Position numbers and translations under genes: made by a program. A DNA stretch of 37,909 bases from Megalodesulfovibrio gigas DSM 1382 = ATCC 19364 (GTDB lineage Bacteria > Desulfobacterota > Desulfovibrionia > Desulfovibrionales > Desulfovibrionaceae): positions 2,370,565 to 2,408,473 of the forward strand of contig NC_022444.1 of the NCBI RefSeq assembly GCF_000468495.1. Direction: 5' to 3'. The notes below the pieces were generated by a model. It ran no database searches, was not told where the DNA came from, and saw nothing but the letters and a program-made list of their open reading frames with translations. Of this stretch, positions 3,434 through 9,974 are shown piece by piece. How positions within the stretch are numbered: position 1 is the stretch's first letter; every line of letters begins with the position of its first letter.

Positions 3434-5641
3434 TCATGCCGGCAGAGCCTGCGAATGCTCCCGCGGCAATTCCACCACAAACGTGCTCCCCCGCCCTGGT
3501 TCCGACTGGACGCGAATGCGGCCGTGGTAGTGCTCCACAATCTGCTTGCAGATGGCCAGCCCCAGCCCCGCACCCAGGGGCTTGTTCGTCTCCATGCTGC
3601 CCCCGGCCTGTCCGACCTGATAAAATCGGTCGAAGATGCGGCCGATCTCCCCGGCGGCAATGCCCGCGCCAGTGTCCGTTACCCCCAGCTGCACCACGGT
3701 CTGGCCGGTGTCGTGGATTTCGCGCACGAAAAGCAGCACCTCTCCCTGTGCCGTGAACTTCAAGGCGTTGGAGAGCAGGTTGATGAGCACCTGCATAATG
3801 CGGTCCGGGTCCAGCTGCATGGGGGGCAGCTGTTCGGGAATATCCAGTCGCAGGCGCACGCCCTTGTTTTCGCCAAAGGCAGCAGCCAGGGCGCGGGCGG
3901 CGTCCCTGGCCAGGGCAGCCAGATCCACAGGACCATCCTTCCAATGATAATATCCTGAATCCAGGCGGGAGAAGTCCAACAGATCGGTAATCAGCCGGGT
4001 GAGCCGTTCGCCTTCCTGCACGATGATGTCCAGATTGGCCAGGATGGTGGTTGCGCTCTTGGCCAGCCTGGGGTCCGTGGCCTGTGGCGCAAAGCGTTTG
4101 GCGAACTCCCGATGAATGAGCTTGGCGAATCCCAGCACCGAGGTGAGGGGGGTGCGCAGGTCGTGGGACACGGTGCTGAGGAAGGCGCTTTTGAGTTCGT
4201 CCAGCTCCAGCAGGCGGCGGTTGGCTTCGGTGAGTTCCAGGGTTCGTTGTTCCACCAGGGTTTCCAGCTCTTTCTTGGAATGCTGCAACACCTGACGGGC
4301 GTTGTACAGGTCCGTCACATCCTCCATCACGGCCACCACATCCGAGCCTTGCCCCGACACCATTAGCGGCGCGGCATTGAGGGAAAGGACACGACGCTGC
4401 CCGTCCGGCCGGCGATGCCAGGCTGTCCAGCCGTGCATGGGGGCAGCCTCGGCCAGGGCGCGGGCCATGGGCAGGGTTTCGGGAGGGAGCAGGGTGCCGG
4501 ACTCGTCTTCCAGCTCCAGACGCCAGTCCTCGGGCAGGGACGCGGCCGTCTCCAGTCCCAGTATGCGCTTGGCCCGTTCGTTGAGATAGGTGGCCCGGCC
4601 GTGCCCGTCGAAGGTGGCGATGCCCAGGGGGCTGGTTTCGATGAGGGAGCGATACCGCGCCTCCGAGGCCCGCAGGCCGCCCAGGGCCTGGTTGAGCGCC
4701 GCCAGGGAGAACGCCGCCAGCACCAGAATGCACAGGGAGATGAGCCCGTTGATGGTGGCCAGCCAGGCGGCCGGGGCCAGAATCTCGTGGGCGTCCGCCT
4801 CCACCACCAGCAGCCAGCCGGTATGCGCATTGCGGCCCGCCACGGCCATGCGTTCGGTTTCCATGCCTGCAGCGCCGGTGCGGTATCGCAGCACCTCCCC
4901 GGTGTTGGCAATGGCGTCCAGGGCGGCCAGGTGCGGGCCTGGATTAAACTGGCCCGGCGTGGCCCAGGACGGTGTGATAATGATGCCAGTTTGCGGATCC
5001 AGCACCACGGCGCCGCCGCTTTGGCCCACGCGCAACTCGTCCAGCAGGCGCTGGGCAAAGCGTGACGTGTCCAGCACCAGATAGAGCACCCCGGGCTTGT
5101 CCATCTCCTTGGGCGCCACCATGGTGGAAATGATGGTGATGGGATATTCCACATACCGGCCTTTCGAGAGGCTCTCCACCACGGTCTCGCCAGTCAGGGA
5201 GCGCTGGAAGAAGCCGCGGTCTGCAATGGAAATGACGCCGATGATGCCGGGATCGGACGCGGCAATGATGTCCCCGGTGGCATTTGCCAGCATGATGCGG
5301 GCGATGTCCCTGTCCCGGATGCGGTCCGCCAGCCGGGTGTTGGCCGCGGCCCGGGCAGAGCGCCCCAGATAGGTATCGGCCAGGGCCAGGGAAAAGATGT
5401 CCTCCTTGCTCCATTGGACCAGATTTCGGCGCAGTTCCTGAAACTGGTTGTCCAGTTCGAGATTGAGGAAGCGCAGGGCCTGCACGGCGTGGCCCATGGC
5501 CAGCTCCTCGGCGGCGCGTTTGGTGTGGATGTAGGAAACAATGGTGATGAGGACAAAACCGGTCAGCAAAAGGGAGAGCACCGGCGCGAGCTTGCCCCGT
5601 CCCCCGGGCGGGAGGGCATGTGGCAGCCGGCCTGCTCTCAT
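3434..5641 (-). CDS. Membrane sensor histidine kinase with extracytoplasmic sensor and PAS domain
   Basis: The 735-residue kinase has a first membrane segment at about 17-37, then a roughly 250-residue periplasmic region resembling a dCache sensor. A second membrane segment lies near 293-318. A PAS region and a coiled coil lead to a HisKA domain with SHDLRTPL (phospho-acceptor H493). The ATPase domain has an N-box (INLLSNALKF), DTGAGI and GAGLGLAI. The start ATG 5639-5641 overlaps the stop of the upstream binding-protein gene as ATGA, so the two are translationally coupled. The periplasmic binding protein probably modulates this sensor; that is inference. No response regulator is encoded beside it. 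A longer reading frame runs upstream but would lie entirely inside the preceding gene. Confidence 0.88.
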   Translation of the reverse strand: MRAGRLPHALPPGGRGKLAPVLSLLLTGFVLITIVSYIHTKRAAEELAMGHAVQALRFLNLELDNQFQELRRNLVQWSKEDIFSLALADTYLGRSARAAANTRLADRIRDRDIARIMLANATGDIIAASDPGIIGVISIADRGFFQRSLTGETVVESLSKGRYVEYPITIISTMVAPKEMDKPGVLYLVLDTSRFAQRLLDELRVGQSGGAVVLDPQTGIIITPSWATPGQFNPGPHLAALDAIANTGEVLRYRTGAAGMETERMAVAGRNAHTGWLLVVEADAHEILAPAAWLATINGLISLCILVLAAFSLAALNQALGGLRASEARYRSLIETSPLGIATFDGHGRATYLNERAKRILGLETAASLPEDWRLELEDESGTLLPPETLPMARALAEAAPMHGWTAWHRRPDGQRRVLSLNAAPLMVSGQGSDVVAVMEDVTDLYNARQVLQHSKKELETLVEQRTLELTEANRRLLELDELKSAFLSTVSHDLRTPLTSVLGFAKLIHREFAKRFAPQATDPRLAKSATTILANLDIIVQEGERLTRLITDLLDFSRLDSGYYHWKDGPVDLAALARDAARALAAAFGENKGVRLRLDIPEQLPPMQLDPDRIMQVLINLLSNALKFTAQGEVLLFVREIHDTGQTVVQLGVTDTGAGIAAGEIGRIFDRFYQVGQAGGSMETNKPLGAGLGLAICKQIVEHYHGRIRVQSEPGRGSTFVVELPREHSQALPA

Positions 5642-6657
5642 CGCAGCACCACCCCGGCAGCCTCGATGATTTCGTACGGGATGGACAACTGCAGTATTTC
5701 CGCTGTCTTGAGATTGACCATCACCACTCCCCGTTCGTTGATGCGCGGGGGCAGTCGCCCGGCGATGACGCCGGTGAGCACCTCCCGGACCATGAGCCCG
5801 GCCAGATAGCCCTGCTCGTGTCCGGACTCCAGAATCCCGCACAGCAGGTCGTGCTCCATGGCCACGTCGGAAAAGCCAAGGGTGGGCAGGGTGTTGACGC
5901 TGTTTGTCCAGGCCATCACTGCATCGGGGTGCACCACAGTGCCGTCGTCGTCCAGCAGGGCGTTGTACAGACCCAGGGCCAGGGCGTCGGCATGGGTCTG
6001 GTAGTGCAGAATGCGTTCCTTCCAGTCCTGGAAGGTGCGCAGCTGTTCCACGCCGGCAAGCTCCAGATCGTAGGGGCCGTGCTCAGCCAGGTCCCGCAGC
6101 AGCTCATCGACGACATAGCCGCCGGCATCGGAGGCTTCCAGCAGAAACGCCACGCGGCTGGCCTGGGGAGCGATGCGCTTGAGCAGGGCGAAGCCTTCGC
6201 GATAATGCCAACGCTCGCGTACGCCGGAGATGTTGGCCATGGGAAAGCCGTATTTGGAGAGCGGCGCGTTGACGCCGCAGAAGATCACCTGCGGCCTGTC
6301 CCGTCCCTTGAGTCGGGGCGCCACCAGCAGGGCCTGGGCGGCGTCGTCCACGCTCACCACCACATGGGGTTCAAAGGCTTCCATACGGGCAAAGGCCTCG
6401 TCCGCGGCCTGCTGCAGGAGAACAGGATCCGGGATGCGCTTGGCGTCCAGATAGACGGTCTCAATCTCCAGCGCAATGCCGTGCAGGGCTTCTTCCAGGC
6501 CCAGATTGACGGCCCGGCACCAGACGTATTCCGGGTTGTAGCTCTGCAGCACAAATACCCGGCGCGCGGTCTCGGGCATGGCGTGCCCGGTGGCCACGTC
6601 CAATCCCAATCCCACGCCCAGATGCAGCAGCCAACCCATGAACGCGCGTCTTTGCAT
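5638..6657 (-). CDS. Periplasmic ABC-type substrate-binding protein coupled to the kinase
   Basis: This 339-residue protein resembles the ABC_sub_bind family (PF04392). The mature part begins with VFVLQSYNPEYVWCR, typical of the stand-alone binding proteins found next to sensor kinases. The N-terminus MQRRAFMGWLLHLGVG looks like an export signal, possibly Tat-like with its RR pair. ATG 6657 is preferred because GGGGGGATC precedes it; an ATG seven codons upstream lacks that support. No permease or ATPase gene is nearby, so transport is unlikely. The ATGA overlap with the kinase gene suggests it delivers a ligand signal. The ligand cannot be told from sequence. Confidence 0.78.
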   Translation of the reverse strand: MQRRAFMGWLLHLGVGLGLDVATGHAMPETARRVFVLQSYNPEYVWCRAVNLGLEEALHGIALEIETVYLDAKRIPDPVLLQQAADEAFARMEAFEPHVVVSVDDAAQALLVAPRLKGRDRPQVIFCGVNAPLSKYGFPMANISGVRERWHYREGFALLKRIAPQASRVAFLLEASDAGGYVVDELLRDLAEHGPYDLELAGVEQLRTFQDWKERILHYQTHADALALGLYNALLDDDGTVVHPDAVMAWTNSVNTLPTLGFSDVAMEHDLLCGILESGHEQGYLAGLMVREVLTGVIAGRLPPRINERGVVMVNLKTAEILQLSIPYEIIEAAGVVLR

Positions 6658-6799
6658 GATCCCCCCGTTCCCATGCATCCGTGTCGCCCTTGTCGTCCAT
6701 GACGGACGAAGTTGACGGAATAGACGCGCAGTATACCCGAAGGGGGCGCAAAGTCCAACGGGTTGGCGGGGGGACGTGGTCCATCAGGGCGATGGAGCG

Positions 6800-6856: not shown

Positions 6857-7651
6857 TCAGGCCTGCGGTTTGCGCCCGATGCCGATAGCGCCGACAGCGC
6901 AGGCATCCAGACAATCGCCGCAGTTGGTGCAGTTGGGCTCTTCGGGCCGTGTCCCCATGGGGCACAGGCGCAGGCATTTGTTGCAATCGTTGCACGCTGA
7001 CGTTTTATAGACTCGAAATATCGAAAGCTTACGAAAAATATCCAGCAGGCTGCCCGTGGGGCAGGCAAAGCGACACCATGCGTTGCCCAGTACCAACCCC
7101 AGGGCCAGGAGACCCAGCACCACACCGGTACGCCACAACCACAAAGGGAACGCATGCTCGAAGGTGAGGGCCACGGCTCCAAAAAAATCGCCCACGCGGA
7201 TGGGGACGTTGGTGCGCGGCTGGCCCAGGAGAAAATACACGTACAGCGCCGTGGCCAGGCCGAGATATTTGCCGTACGGCGCCAGACGCGACACCAGGGA
7301 CCGGCGCTGCAGCCTGAAGGGCGCTGCCAGGCTCATCAGCTGGCTGACCAGCCCTCCCGGGCAGGCCCAGCCGCAAAATGCCCGCCCGAACAGGACGGCG
7401 GAAAGCGGCAGCAGCAGCCAGAATCCCCAGAACATGCTCAGGATGCGCCCGTGGCAGGTGACCACCGGGCAGCTTTGGCAGGACAGATACGGCACCACAA
7501 AGGGACAGCGGAAAATGCCGTAAAACGACCATTGCCCGATGATCCCCAGCATGACCACCTGCGAGAGTCTGCGCCACAGGGTCAGGCGATGTCCCCGGGA
7601 ACCCGCCCGGCAAGCTGAAGGGCATGAAGGTGCAGCCAGCGTCTCAGACAT
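6857..7651 (-). CDS. Polytopic membrane 4Fe-4S protein, NapH/NosR/CcoG-like
   Basis: The 264-residue protein has about five hydrophobic segments. The family's cysteine motifs are FCGWACPGG (C93, C97) and WCRFACPTG. Two C-terminal ferredoxin-type clusters follow: C220-x2-C-x2-C-x3-C230 and C241-x2-C-x2-C-x3-C251. An extra cysteine-rich stretch, CPFVVPYLSCQSCPVVTC, lies near residues 49-66. Relatives pass electrons between the quinone pool and periplasmic partners. ATG 7651 is chosen because it overlaps the last eight bases of the upstream ModA-like gene, with AAGG just before it. A longer frame would intrude further into that gene. Membrane electron transfer is expected from the family; the partner is unknown. 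Confidence 0.82.
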   Translation of the reverse strand: MSETLAAPSCPSACRAGSRGHRLTLWRRLSQVVMLGIIGQWSFYGIFRCPFVVPYLSCQSCPVVTCHGRILSMFWGFWLLLPLSAVLFGRAFCGWACPGGLVSQLMSLAAPFRLQRRSLVSRLAPYGKYLGLATALYVYFLLGQPRTNVPIRVGDFFGAVALTFEHAFPLWLWRTGVVLGLLALGLVLGNAWCRFACPTGSLLDIFRKLSIFRVYKTSACNDCNKCLRLCPMGTRPEEPNCTNCGDCLDACAVGAIGIGRKPQA

Positions 7652-8507
7652 CCTTGACCCCCAGTTTTTCCACCAGTTCCCGGCCCTTGTCTGACTTGGC
7701 CGGTATGAAGCCACTGCGGGCAAAGTGAGCCTGACCGGCATCGGAGGTCATGAAGGCCATGTAGGTCTCGGCCAGGGCGCGATCCTTCGCTTCCTGCATC
7801 AGGCCCAGGGTGAACGTGAGCGGTCCGGGAGGAAACAGGGAATCAGGGATGGAAAACACGTCCAGCTTGCCGGCGGTTTCGGGCAGCCGTGCAACGCGCA
7901 GTTCCACAATCATCACATCTGCTTTGCCATCCACCACATCGGTCACAGCCGTCTGCACGCACGTGCCCGGATGCGCCACATTGCCCATGACTGCTTCCAG
8001 CAATGCCGCCTTCTTCAGCAATCCAGTGACGGCCTGTCCACCAGGGGGAGATGCCTCCGGGGCCATGGCCACGCGCACGCCGGGGCGGGCCATGTCCTGC
8101 ACGGTGGTGATGCCCGCCGGGTTGCCCTTGGGCGTCACCATCACGTAACTGGTGAAGCAGAGGGGGACGAAATATTGCATCCTGCCGGCGGCACGGAGTT
8201 TTTTGGCCAGATCCAGCACCCGCCCGGCAAACACCTCGGTGGAGCCGCTGGCCAGCAGGGACTTGCCCAAGGCCGCCGCAAAGGCGCCGGTATAGGCGAT
8301 GTCCACCCCGGTGGATGCGGTGAATTCCTGATGGGCCGGCAGCATGGCTTCGGCCAGGCCCCCGCAGGACCAGACCTGCAAATGCTTGCCTTGTCCCGTG
8401 GCAGATCCGCTCGCGGATGCAGGCAGGGCAAAGGCTGCGCTGGCCACAGCGCCGCTCATGCCGGTGGCGGCCAGTTTCAGAAAGCCCCTGCGCGTGGTCT
8501 CGGACAT
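7644..8507 (-). CDS. Tat-exported ModA-like substrate-binding protein
   Basis: This 287-residue protein starts MSETTRRGFLKLAATG, a textbook Tat signal (R6, R7), followed by an Ala-rich h-region. The mature part has the pattern of molybdate/tungstate-type binding proteins: VWSCGGLAEAMLPA at the start, then a TGVDIAYTGAFAAALGKSL block. AGGAG lies eight bases before ATG 8507. No permease or ATPase genes adjoin it; instead the gene overlaps that of a NapH-like Fe-S membrane protein. Cytoplasmic folding before export, implied by Tat, might mean a bound cofactor. A role in oxyanion binding is family-based; a redox role is inferred only from its neighbour. Confidence 0.75.
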   Translation of the reverse strand: MSETTRRGFLKLAATGMSGAVASAAFALPASASGSATGQGKHLQVWSCGGLAEAMLPAHQEFTASTGVDIAYTGAFAAALGKSLLASGSTEVFAGRVLDLAKKLRAAGRMQYFVPLCFTSYVMVTPKGNPAGITTVQDMARPGVRVAMAPEASPPGGQAVTGLLKKAALLEAVMGNVAHPGTCVQTAVTDVVDGKADVMIVELRVARLPETAGKLDVFSIPDSLFPPGPLTFTLGLMQEAKDRALAETYMAFMTSDAGQAHFARSGFIPAKSDKGRELVEKLGVKDV

Positions 8508-8653: not shown

Positions 8654-8767
8654 GACAGCAGTAATCAATGGGTTCAACAGGCAAGCGCCTTGCCTGCCGG
8701 GGGAAAATGTGCGAGCGCCAAGCTGCGCCGATGCTGCAGCAGCCACCTCAAACTGACGGGAGGGTCC

Positions 8768-9337
8768 ATGCCGCGAGCCGTCTTTCTGGACCGCGATGGC
8801 GTGCTTATCGAAGACAAACACTACCTGCGCCATCCGGATCAGGTGGCGCTGTTGCCCGGCGTGCCGGCAGGGCTGGAGCGGCTGCTGCAGGCGGGATTTT
8901 TGCCTGTGGTGGTCAGCAATCAGTCCGGGGTAGGGCGCGGCTATTTCACAGAGGCGGAGGTGGACGCGGTGCATGCCCGGCTGCAGGCCCTGCTGGCCGC
9001 CCGGGGCATCCCCCTGGCGCATTTCTATTATTGCCCCCATGCCCCTGCAAAAACGCCGGACGAGCCCGGCTGCGCCTGCCGCAAGCCGGCGCCAGGGCTG
9101 ATCCTCGCCGCGGTGTCCGAGTTGGGCATTTGCCTGTCAGACTCGTATATGATTGGAGACAAGCGCTCGGATGTGGGCCTGGGCCGGGCCGTGGGCATCC
9201 CGGCCATTCTGGTGACCACCGGCCATGGCGCGACGGAGCTGCAGCGTCCGGGCCCGACGCCGGATCATGTGGCAGCGGATCTGGACGCTGCAGCGCGCTG
9301 GATCGTCGCCAGGGAGAAGGCCCGCATCAGGTCCTGA
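8768..9337 (+). CDS. gmhB: D-glycero-D-manno-heptose 1,7-bisphosphate 7-phosphatase
   Basis: GmhB removes the 7-phosphate during synthesis of ADP-heptose for the LPS inner core. The 189-residue HAD-type protein begins MPRAVFLDRDG with the nucleophile and acid D8/D10. It carries the family zinc-binding set C89, H91, C102, C104 (CPH...CAC) and ends its catalytic core with MIGDKRSDV (D131). The length fits the family. ATG 8768 is chosen over an upstream in-frame ATG because GGGAGG lies just before it and the fold starts there. The 3' end overlaps the convergent yedF gene by 11 bases. Confidence 0.93.
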   Translation: MPRAVFLDRDGVLIEDKHYLRHPDQVALLPGVPAGLERLLQAGFLPVVVSNQSGVGRGYFTEAEVDAVHARLQALLAARGIPLAHFYYCPHAPAKTPDEPGCACRKPAPGLILAAVSELGICLSDSYMIGDKRSDVGLGRAVGIPAILVTTGHGATELQRPGPTPDHVAADLDAAARWIVAREKARIRS

Positions 9338-9974
9338 TGATCTTGGTGGCAAGCTGCATGCTGGTGACCACATCCAGCATGTTCGTGGTCTGGCCCACGG
9401 CCTTGGCCGCCATGAGTCCGAAATGCTCCAGACAGGTGCCGCACACCAGGATGCTCACGCCGGCGCGTTCCAGGGCCTGCAGAGGCTCCAGGGCCGGATG
9501 TTCGGCCGTGGCCAGTTGCACACCGGCATTCACCAGGATGATGCGCCACAGGTCGCCGCCGAGCTCGGGCAGGGTCTTGAGGAAATTCAGGAGCAGCCGG
9601 CCGCCGAGTTCGTCATCCCCGTGCCCCATGGTGGCCGCCGGGATGAACACCAGGATGCGCTGGGAGAGGGCGGCCAGTTCCTGATCGGACATGATCCTGC
9701 ATTCGGGGCAGTCGGCCGTTGTGGCGTCGCCTGCAGCGGCCTGGGCGTCCGCTCGCGCGCCGTGCAAGGTCCAGATGCCATCCGCAAGGGTCTGTTTCAC
9801 GGCATACCCCTGGTGCTGCAGAAACCGGATGACATTTTCCCGGGCGGCGTCGTTGTCCACGAGCACCTCCAGCCTGGCCGGCTGCTGGGACTTCAGCAGC
9901 GTCTTGCACTGCAGCACGGGTTGCGGGCAGGCCAGGCCGCGACAGTCCACGGAGACGAAATCGGGTTGGTTCAT
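9327..9974 (-). CDS. yedF: Sulfurtransferase-like selenium metabolism protein YedF
   Basis: The 215-residue protein fuses a TusA-like domain to a DsrE/DsrF-like domain. The TusA part shows CRGLACPQPV, with C11 and the CPxP cysteine C16. The second part ends with the pair in LVCGTCLEHF. This arrangement defines the selenium-metabolism YedF family, whose genes usually occur in genomes that use selenophosphate; the exact reaction is not settled. GGAGG lies seven bases before ATG 9974. It overlaps gmhB tail to tail by 11 bases, so the two mRNAs are complementary at their ends. The upstream gap holds an A/T-rich palindrome that may control it. Confidence 0.9.
   Translation of the reverse strand: MNQPDFVSVDCRGLACPQPVLQCKTLLKSQQPARLEVLVDNDAARENVIRFLQHQGYAVKQTLADGIWTLHGARADAQAAAGDATTADCPECRIMSDQELAALSQRILVFIPAATMGHGDDELGGRLLLNFLKTLPELGGDLWRIILVNAGVQLATAEHPALEPLQALERAGVSILVCGTCLEHFGLMAAKAVGQTTNMLDVVTSMQLATKIIRT

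Follow-up and report, generated by a model that had tools for sequence, protein, structure and literature searches.

The window analysed here, a stretch of 37,909 nucleotides from Megalodesulfovibrio gigas DSM 1382 = ATCC 19364 (NC_022444.1, positions 2,370,565 to 2,408,473), raises the question of what an exported protein with the fold of the molybdate-binding protein ModA does when its gene overlaps that of an iron-sulfur (Fe-S) membrane protein resembling NapH. Both open reading frames and their overlap, as described in the initial annotation, are confirmed. The pair comprises:

7644-8507, minus strand: twin-arginine translocation (Tat)-type ModA-fold protein of 287 residues, in which three cysteines are invariant; proposed carrier of the cluster.
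6857-7651, minus strand: NapH-like polytopic Fe-S membrane protein of 264 residues, the proposed electron donor.
7644-7651, minus strand: 8-base overlap ATGTCTGA, the final 8 bases of the binding gene being the first 8 of the membrane gene.

The initial annotation overlooked a third component, a NifB-type radical S-adenosylmethionine (radical-SAM) enzyme, whose gene does not adjoin the pair in the window, and which points to a NifB-made cluster as the cargo, in place of a free metal or oxyanion. Confidence in the pair and in its NifB dependence is high, while the comparison leans slightly towards the further claim, that an iron-sulfur-carbide cluster made by NifB, or a derivative of it, is carried by the exported protein. 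Of the redox or metal-handling module originally envisaged, the redox module, with a protein exported already folded by Tat, thus survives as the best reading, whereas the metal or oxyanion cargo gives way to the cluster.

The overlap would couple translation of the two genes, and the pair recurs well beyond the window. A search of 395 genomes of the phylum (own genome included) with a three-row profile of the binding protein found 16 genomes, again counting the own one, with scores of 393 to 547 bits, the next best being 97; the membrane gene comes directly after the binding gene in all 15 relatives so found and in two further relatives. A scan of named genomes with the peptide patterns VWSCGGLA and YTGAFA[AR]AL gave 70 loci, which span Desulfovibrio-like and other groups of sulfate reducers, Sporomusa, Anaerospora, Megasphaera and metagenome-assembled genomes (MAGs) with the labels Phycisphaerae, Bacteroidales, Chitinivibrionales and Acidobacteriota. 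Six loci (L096, L107, L112, L139, L148 and L150) end no more than 198 bases past the binding gene and are not counted for the partner; in the testable loci the membrane partner is directly downstream in 64 of 64. A start codon giving the exact 8-base overlap is available in 58 of the 63 loci scored, a count in which the script favoured such a codon wherever one existed and from which L132, whose frame lacks the WSCGG motif, is omitted; the remaining five overlap by 11 (two), 14 (one) or 1 base (one), or lie 4 bases apart (one). Because every testable locus has the arrangement and 58 allow the exact overlap, the pair is, on gene order, a real conserved unit and not chance, in support of the module suggested in the initial annotation.

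This conservation bears on the most ordinary explanation, namely an orphan binding protein of an ATP-binding cassette (ABC) transporter beside an unrelated Fe-S protein. The binding protein has an SBP_bac_11 domain (E 1.4e-46, Pfam/NCBIfam scan), and an ABC ATPase gene lies within about 3 kb of the pair in nine of the 64 loci (L088, L089, L092, L100, L109, opposite strand; L131, L133, L138 and L113), but a fixed, overlapping partner is not what such an orphan would show, and the two ABC sets inspected have binding proteins of their own, a ModA-type protein in L092 and an NMT1-type protein in L131. No ABC permease or ATPase occurs among the six neighbouring window proteins scanned with the pair, and in relatives too ABC transporter genes are not the normal neighbours; the explanation, which in our view the conservation of the pair refutes, deserves hardly any credence. 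Two ABC ATPases looked SaoA-like, and an SAO organometal system was considered and set aside since they scored below the cut-off.

The recurrent neighbour is of another kind. A NifB-type radical-SAM gene adjoins the pair in 43 of the 64 loci (tblastn), following the membrane gene in 34 and preceding the binding gene in nine. It lies 6.7 to 7.9 kb off in four Solidesulfovibrio loci (L088, L092, L100 and L109), where pair, ABC ATPase and NifB fall within about 8 kb, and is missing from the fetched DNA of 17 loci, several of these stretches ending near the pair. In L147, from a Chitinivibrionales MAG, NifB and the binding protein form one fused frame, and the stretch that joins them contains no ATG, GTG or TTG; L115 and L137 (Phycisphaerae) also have a continuous NifB/binding-protein frame, but with an internal start. 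NifB is found somewhere in the genome for 63 of the 64 pair loci: among the 21 without an adjacent copy, L104, L125, L129 and L140 have one elsewhere, as do 16 of the other 17. The nif region of the window's own genome (G000:C2:1375866-1384382) holds a NifB of 360 bits and a distant second NifB-like match (1380424-1381197, 226 bits), which lies between a NifD-family match and nifD.

The NifB ligand positions known from the Methanosarcina enzyme (available text of PMC6053413 and PMC7145814) were mapped onto the adjacent copies by motif and spacing. The radical-SAM CxxxCxxC and the K1 histidine are kept in all 43, the K1 cysteines in 42, 34 and 42 of 43, and a C-terminal CxxC in 40 of the 40 untruncated copies; most copies show no counterpart of MaNifB's third K2 cysteine, which is also lacking in PDB 6y1x, the structure that the adjacent NifB of L145 matches at E 2e-73. 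Because these cluster ligand positions are kept, the adjacent NifB should be functional. The copies nevertheless differ from NifB as defined by TIGR01290, the nitrogenase cofactor maturase, with which they share the radical-SAM motif, the K-cluster histidine and most cysteine ligands: those scored (6 + 10 copies) reach 249 to 337 bits, below the cut-off of 343.65, and cover about the first 290 of 441 model positions. In a small tree made by a quick method from 62 rows after trimming (55 of them different, and only 12 of them nif rows), the 12 nif copies split from the 50 pair-adjacent rows with a branch support of 90.

Co-occurrence across the phylum follows the same line. NifB (E<=1e-50) is present in 109 of the 395 genomes: every one of the 16 pair genomes (own counted) has it, and of the 379 others 93 do (Fisher p 5e-10, a guide only, the genomes being related and several sharing genus or family). 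The dependence of the pair on NifB is well supported by these distributions. The pair does not track nitrogenase in this way. nifD is present in 12 of 18 pair genomes and absent from six (one of which, G190, has a 43-bit partial match), and NifB adjoins the pair in six of the six nifD-less genomes against four of the 12 that bear nifD (p 0.013), the other eight relying on NifB elsewhere. A further 40 genomes were taken, 13 because no NifB lies nearby and 27 because one adjoins the pair. Among the 13, 12 have nifD (E<=1e-100), the thirteenth locus, L127, beginning inside the binding gene; among the 27, 14 lack it, a share that is not a rate since those loci were hand-chosen, so that only the six-of-six comparison is unselected. 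Even at E<=1e-4, the nifD model finds nothing in 15 of the 20 nifD-less pair genomes and gives partial matches of 26 to 43 bits in the remaining five; several of the genomes are MAGs, in which an absent nifD may be a gap. As far as these assemblies go, NifB is found beside the pair in 15 genomes, some of them MAGs, with no detectable nitrogenase-family client, and comparison of gene content shows the pair system to be independent of nitrogenase.

A role as nitrogenase accessory was rejected on account of the nitrogenase-free pair genomes. The proposal that the binding protein donates molybdenum for FeMo-cofactor, or otherwise assists nitrogen fixation, could appeal to the ModA fold, to the 12 pair genomes with nifD and to the Solidesulfovibrio loci, where NifB is at a distance, an ABC ATPase is near and L092 holds a second ModA-type protein; it is very improbable in the face of the nifD-less genomes and the replacement of the side-chain molybdate ligands described below. 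Moreover, the two matches to the binding protein in the window's genome are the protein itself and a separate, distant ModA-like gene (1e-5), 0.98 Mb off, with a Sec-like signal and with neighbours that, by eye and with no family search, look like ModB and ModC.

How the binding protein departs from ModA can be followed residue by residue:

8409-8507, minus strand: predicted Tat-type signal region, about residues 1-33, with RRGFLK; the protein starts MSETTRRGFLK.
8364-8366, minus strand: Cys48 codon; ModA ligand Ser12 maps two residues further on; invariant in 18 (profile) and 65 proteins.
8157-8159, minus strand: Cys117 codon, on a strand at the hinge (E110-118 in the model); invariant in 65.
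7959-7961, minus strand: Cys183 codon; ModA ligand Val152 maps to the next residue; invariant in 65.
7902-7904, minus strand: Glu202 codon, aligned with ModA ligand Tyr170; invariant in 65.

The twin arginine is present in 18 of 18 aligned binding proteins of the profile set and, by pattern, in 68 of 69 loci, L113 (SRRSV) being the exception. C48, C117, C183, E202 and R204 are unchanged in the 18 profile-found and the 65 named-scan proteins; the scan peptides include C48, which, like their other residues, is thus partly selected for in the 65-row alignment (A5, which omits L088 and L105 as near-duplicates by eye, and L096, L132, L148 and L150), whereas the 18-row alignment comes from the profile search instead. 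Six outgroup proteins, with at most 97 bits to the profile, lack the WSCGG motif and have 0 to 7 cysteines per frame. The AlphaFold2 model (mean predicted local distance difference test score, pLDDT, 89.5, the core mostly 94-98) predicts a periplasmic binding protein type II fold, and ModA and ModA-type structures make up its ten best Foldseek matches (E 4e-18 to 2e-16). The contacts of E. coli ModA, Ser12, Ser39, Pro124, Ala125, Val152 and Tyr170 (available text of PMC8895017), map onto G50, A77, P155, G156, V184 and E202 when aligned through the own genome's ModA-like protein. All three side-chain hydroxyl ligands, S12, S39 and Y170, are therefore replaced, by G50, A77 and E202, which tells against the molybdate-type ligand first proposed, and C48 and C183 sit beside two of the former ligand positions.

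The binding protein and ModA (TIGR01256) thus have a fold in common and differ in these ligands, in the three invariant cysteines, in the Tat-type signal and in the lack of a ModBC partner among the window neighbours scanned; a molybdate ABC component was rejected on the ligand positions and neighbours. The score against TIGR01256 modA is 41.8 bits, under the cut-off of 62.5, and the membrane protein scores 55.3 bits against napH TIGR02163, under the cut-off of 213, and is likewise below that of NF007013 (234). Because both fall short of their family cut-offs, 'ModA-like' and 'NapH-like' are fair labels by these scores and 'ModA' and 'NapH' are not. No PHROGs family was found for the binding protein; the membrane protein matched one PHROGs family of unknown function.

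The membrane protein carries the following cysteine sites:

7436-7510, minus strand: first loop, after helix 1, with four extra cysteines, C49, C58, C61 and C66, invariant in 63 proteins.
7358-7375, minus strand: first CxxxCP motif, C93/C97, cysteines invariant in 63.
7058-7075, minus strand: second CxxxCP motif, C193/C197, cysteines invariant in 63.
6878-7009, minus strand: C-terminal two-[4Fe-4S] ferredoxin domain with 8 cysteines, predicted cytoplasmic.

Sixteen cysteines are invariant in the 63 aligned membrane proteins (A6, which leaves out L102, cut, and L132), namely the two CxxxCP pairs, the eight of the ferredoxin domain and the four extra ones of the first loop. The model has four long helices (pLDDT 80). 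Net charge by loop, K+R minus D+E, is +1.4 for the N-terminus, then +2.1, +4.8 and +0.2, and +3.2 for the C-terminus, by which the second loop and the C-terminus look cytoplasmic; the first loop, with the extra cysteines, is predicted on the extracytoplasmic side because of the helix order, its own charge not clearly marking it. Four long helices, two CxxxCP motifs and a C-terminal 2x[4Fe-4S] domain are also found in NapH/MauN and in NosR and CcoG; the protein stands apart from NapH/MauN in scoring far below the cut-offs, in the four invariant first-loop cysteines and in having a ModA-fold partner. No PDB match to the NapH-like model was found, the best having an E of 1.9, and no nap or mau neighbours were recognised among the recurrent neighbour clusters, at which no family search for them was aimed.

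CcoG acts as a metal reductase, and the weak similarity of the membrane protein to CcoG as well as NapH, together with cysteines at the former ligand cleft, could indicate that a soft metal is held by the cysteines of the binding protein, to be reduced or released by the membrane protein. Such metal handling is a rather doubtful alternative, because no metal transporter or oxidase was recognised among the recurrent neighbour clusters and the dependence on NifB would go unexplained.

The arrangement that takes account of the NifB dependence is as follows. NifB works in the cytoplasm, and Tat is the typical export route for proteins that acquire their cofactor beforehand. In light of a cytoplasmic NifB, a Tat-type signal, fixed cysteines and an Fe-S membrane partner, we infer that the binding protein receives a NifB cluster, is exported and exchanges electrons; the seat of the cluster, the function of Tat export, the direction of electron flow and a catalytic role belong to the same inference. 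A NifB enzyme, encoded by a dedicated gene beside the pair or, in N2 fixers including the window's genome, by the nif copy, would make an [Fe8S9C]-type cluster. The cluster or a derivative would be placed in the ModA-fold cleft, where C48, C183, probably C117, and E202 would replace the oxyanion ligands, and the loaded protein would fold in the cytoplasm and then leave by Tat. The NapH-like protein would pass electrons from its two cytoplasmic [4Fe-4S] clusters across the membrane to its outer site of four cysteines and from there to the exported protein, which would spend them on some substrate, the pair forming the extracytoplasmic half of a NifB-dependent redox system.

There is precedent for such a use of the cluster. 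In methanogens, the methyl-coenzyme M reductase (MCR) activation complex, with McrC and Mmp7, holds [8Fe-9S-C] clusters outside nitrogenase, for electron transfer, bound by one Cys and one His, by two Cys or by two His (available text of PMC12176620). This supports the placing of a NifB-type cluster in a non-nitrogenase protein, with the difference that the complex is archaeal, consists of other proteins and has no ModA fold or Tat export named in that text, and that the cluster of the pair is deduced. In methylthio-alkane reductase, MarHDK, a nitrogenase metallocluster serves other chemistry (available text of PMC12552129), but this is a nitrogenase-like enzyme, for which the 15 pair genomes with no nifD-model match offer no counterpart. 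No earlier description of the pair system was recognised in the open-access literature, which is without most subscription journals and so gives no proof of absence in print.

A different chemistry is suggested by selenium and sulfur genes near the pair. The window holds, upstream of it:

9327-9974, minus strand: YedF selenium-metabolism protein (TIGR03527, 202 bits, over the cut-off), 820 bases upstream of the pair.
8690-9337, plus strand: GmhB-like phosphatase, between YedF and the pair.

YedE-like genes occur in the fetched DNA of ten of the 64 loci, in varied orders and lineages (three were scored, all over the TIGR04112 cut-off), and rhodaneses with a signal-like start lie near the pair in six (L091, L094, L102, L105, L123 and L149), of which the two scored, those of L102 and L149, are far under the cut-off for the selenoprotein TsoB but resemble its N-terminal part. 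Of the 16 pair genomes 12 have YedE, compared with 167 of the 379 others (p 0.02, uncorrected). On this evidence the cysteines might bind sulfur or selenium species or form a disulfide across the cleft, which the NapH-like protein would reduce and YedE or rhodanese take further, NifB serving something else nearby; PDB 3axf, an A11C/R153C mutant of ModA, has an engineered disulfide next to the positions of C48 and C183. This thiol-based alternative is unlikely, since YedE is missing from four of the 16 pair genomes, the window's own among them, SelD is uninformative (over the cut-off in 347 of 395 genomes and in 16 of 16 pair genomes, p 0.24), and the far stronger link to NifB would be left unexplained. 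Selenium was accordingly dropped as the main link, SelD giving no signal and YedE only its uncorrected p, and was kept as a rival and as a hint to the substrate, the YedE, YedF and rhodanese hints being weak and a selenium or sulfur substrate speculative.

The YedE/YedF selenium genes (available text of PMC5322559) are neighbours of the pair in a minority of loci, and the pair is not a member of that system; the main text of that paper, as available, contains no occurrence of NapH, 4Fe-4S or ferredoxin. According to the available text of a 2026 review (PMC13188914), a specific transport system with high affinity for selenium has not been identified in any prokaryote. Molybdopterin-oxidoreductase-like genes, so labelled by eye from one similarity cluster, lie within 10 kb of the pair in L096, L108, L120, L122, L123, L129, L130, L140 and L145.

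Several observations weigh against a NifB-made cluster in the exported protein. The pair has no NifB beside it in 21 of the 64 loci, nor in the window's genome; one pair genome, G464 (a 2.2 Mb MAG), showed no NifB, and two of the genome finds (G458 and G462) are fragments. One K1 cysteine aligns in only 34 of the 43 adjacent copies, and ABC ATPase genes are near the pair in the nine loci named above. The invariance of C48 is partly selected in the 65-row set and free of that only in the 18-row set, C117 is placed by the model only near the hinge, and the fold, by Foldseek on the model, is an ordinary ModA fold, on which we know of no cluster carrier. The pair is also absent from 93 of the 109 NifB genomes, because of which NifB may have other clients in those genomes; many of the 93 score below the NifB cut-off (e.g. 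G130, G131, G183, G423 and G440). Taking these points with the rest, we regard as evenly balanced the full proposal of a periplasmic enzyme or electron carrier, widespread among anaerobes, with a NifB-made cluster in a binding-protein cleft, Tat export in the folded state and NapH-like wiring to the cytoplasm, possibly reducing selenium or sulfur compounds that YedE would then take up.

Elsewhere in the window, the six scanned neighbours include an ABC_sub_bind-type binding protein (5638-6678, minus strand), which adjoins a dCache/PAS histidine kinase (3434-5842, minus strand); together they have the look of a pair that senses a ligand.

It is chiefly from nitrogenases that NifB-made clusters are known. 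One use outside nitrogenase was shown by the MCR activation complex (2025; available text of PMC12176620), and the pair may represent another, not previously known. Should bacteria without a detectable nitrogenase-family protein prove to have a NifB client, one of the most complex iron-sulfur clusters in biology would gain a wider use. If the proposal is true, a nitrogenase-type cluster would operate outside the cytoplasm, and the retention of nifB by some non-fixing anaerobes would be explained; to our knowledge, no such cluster would have been placed beyond the cytoplasm, or on a binding-protein fold, before this one. It also follows that an annotation of nifB or of 'molybdate-binding protein' alone is an unsafe sign of nitrogen fixation or molybdate uptake. 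As a unit of two or three genes, the system is simple and directly testable.

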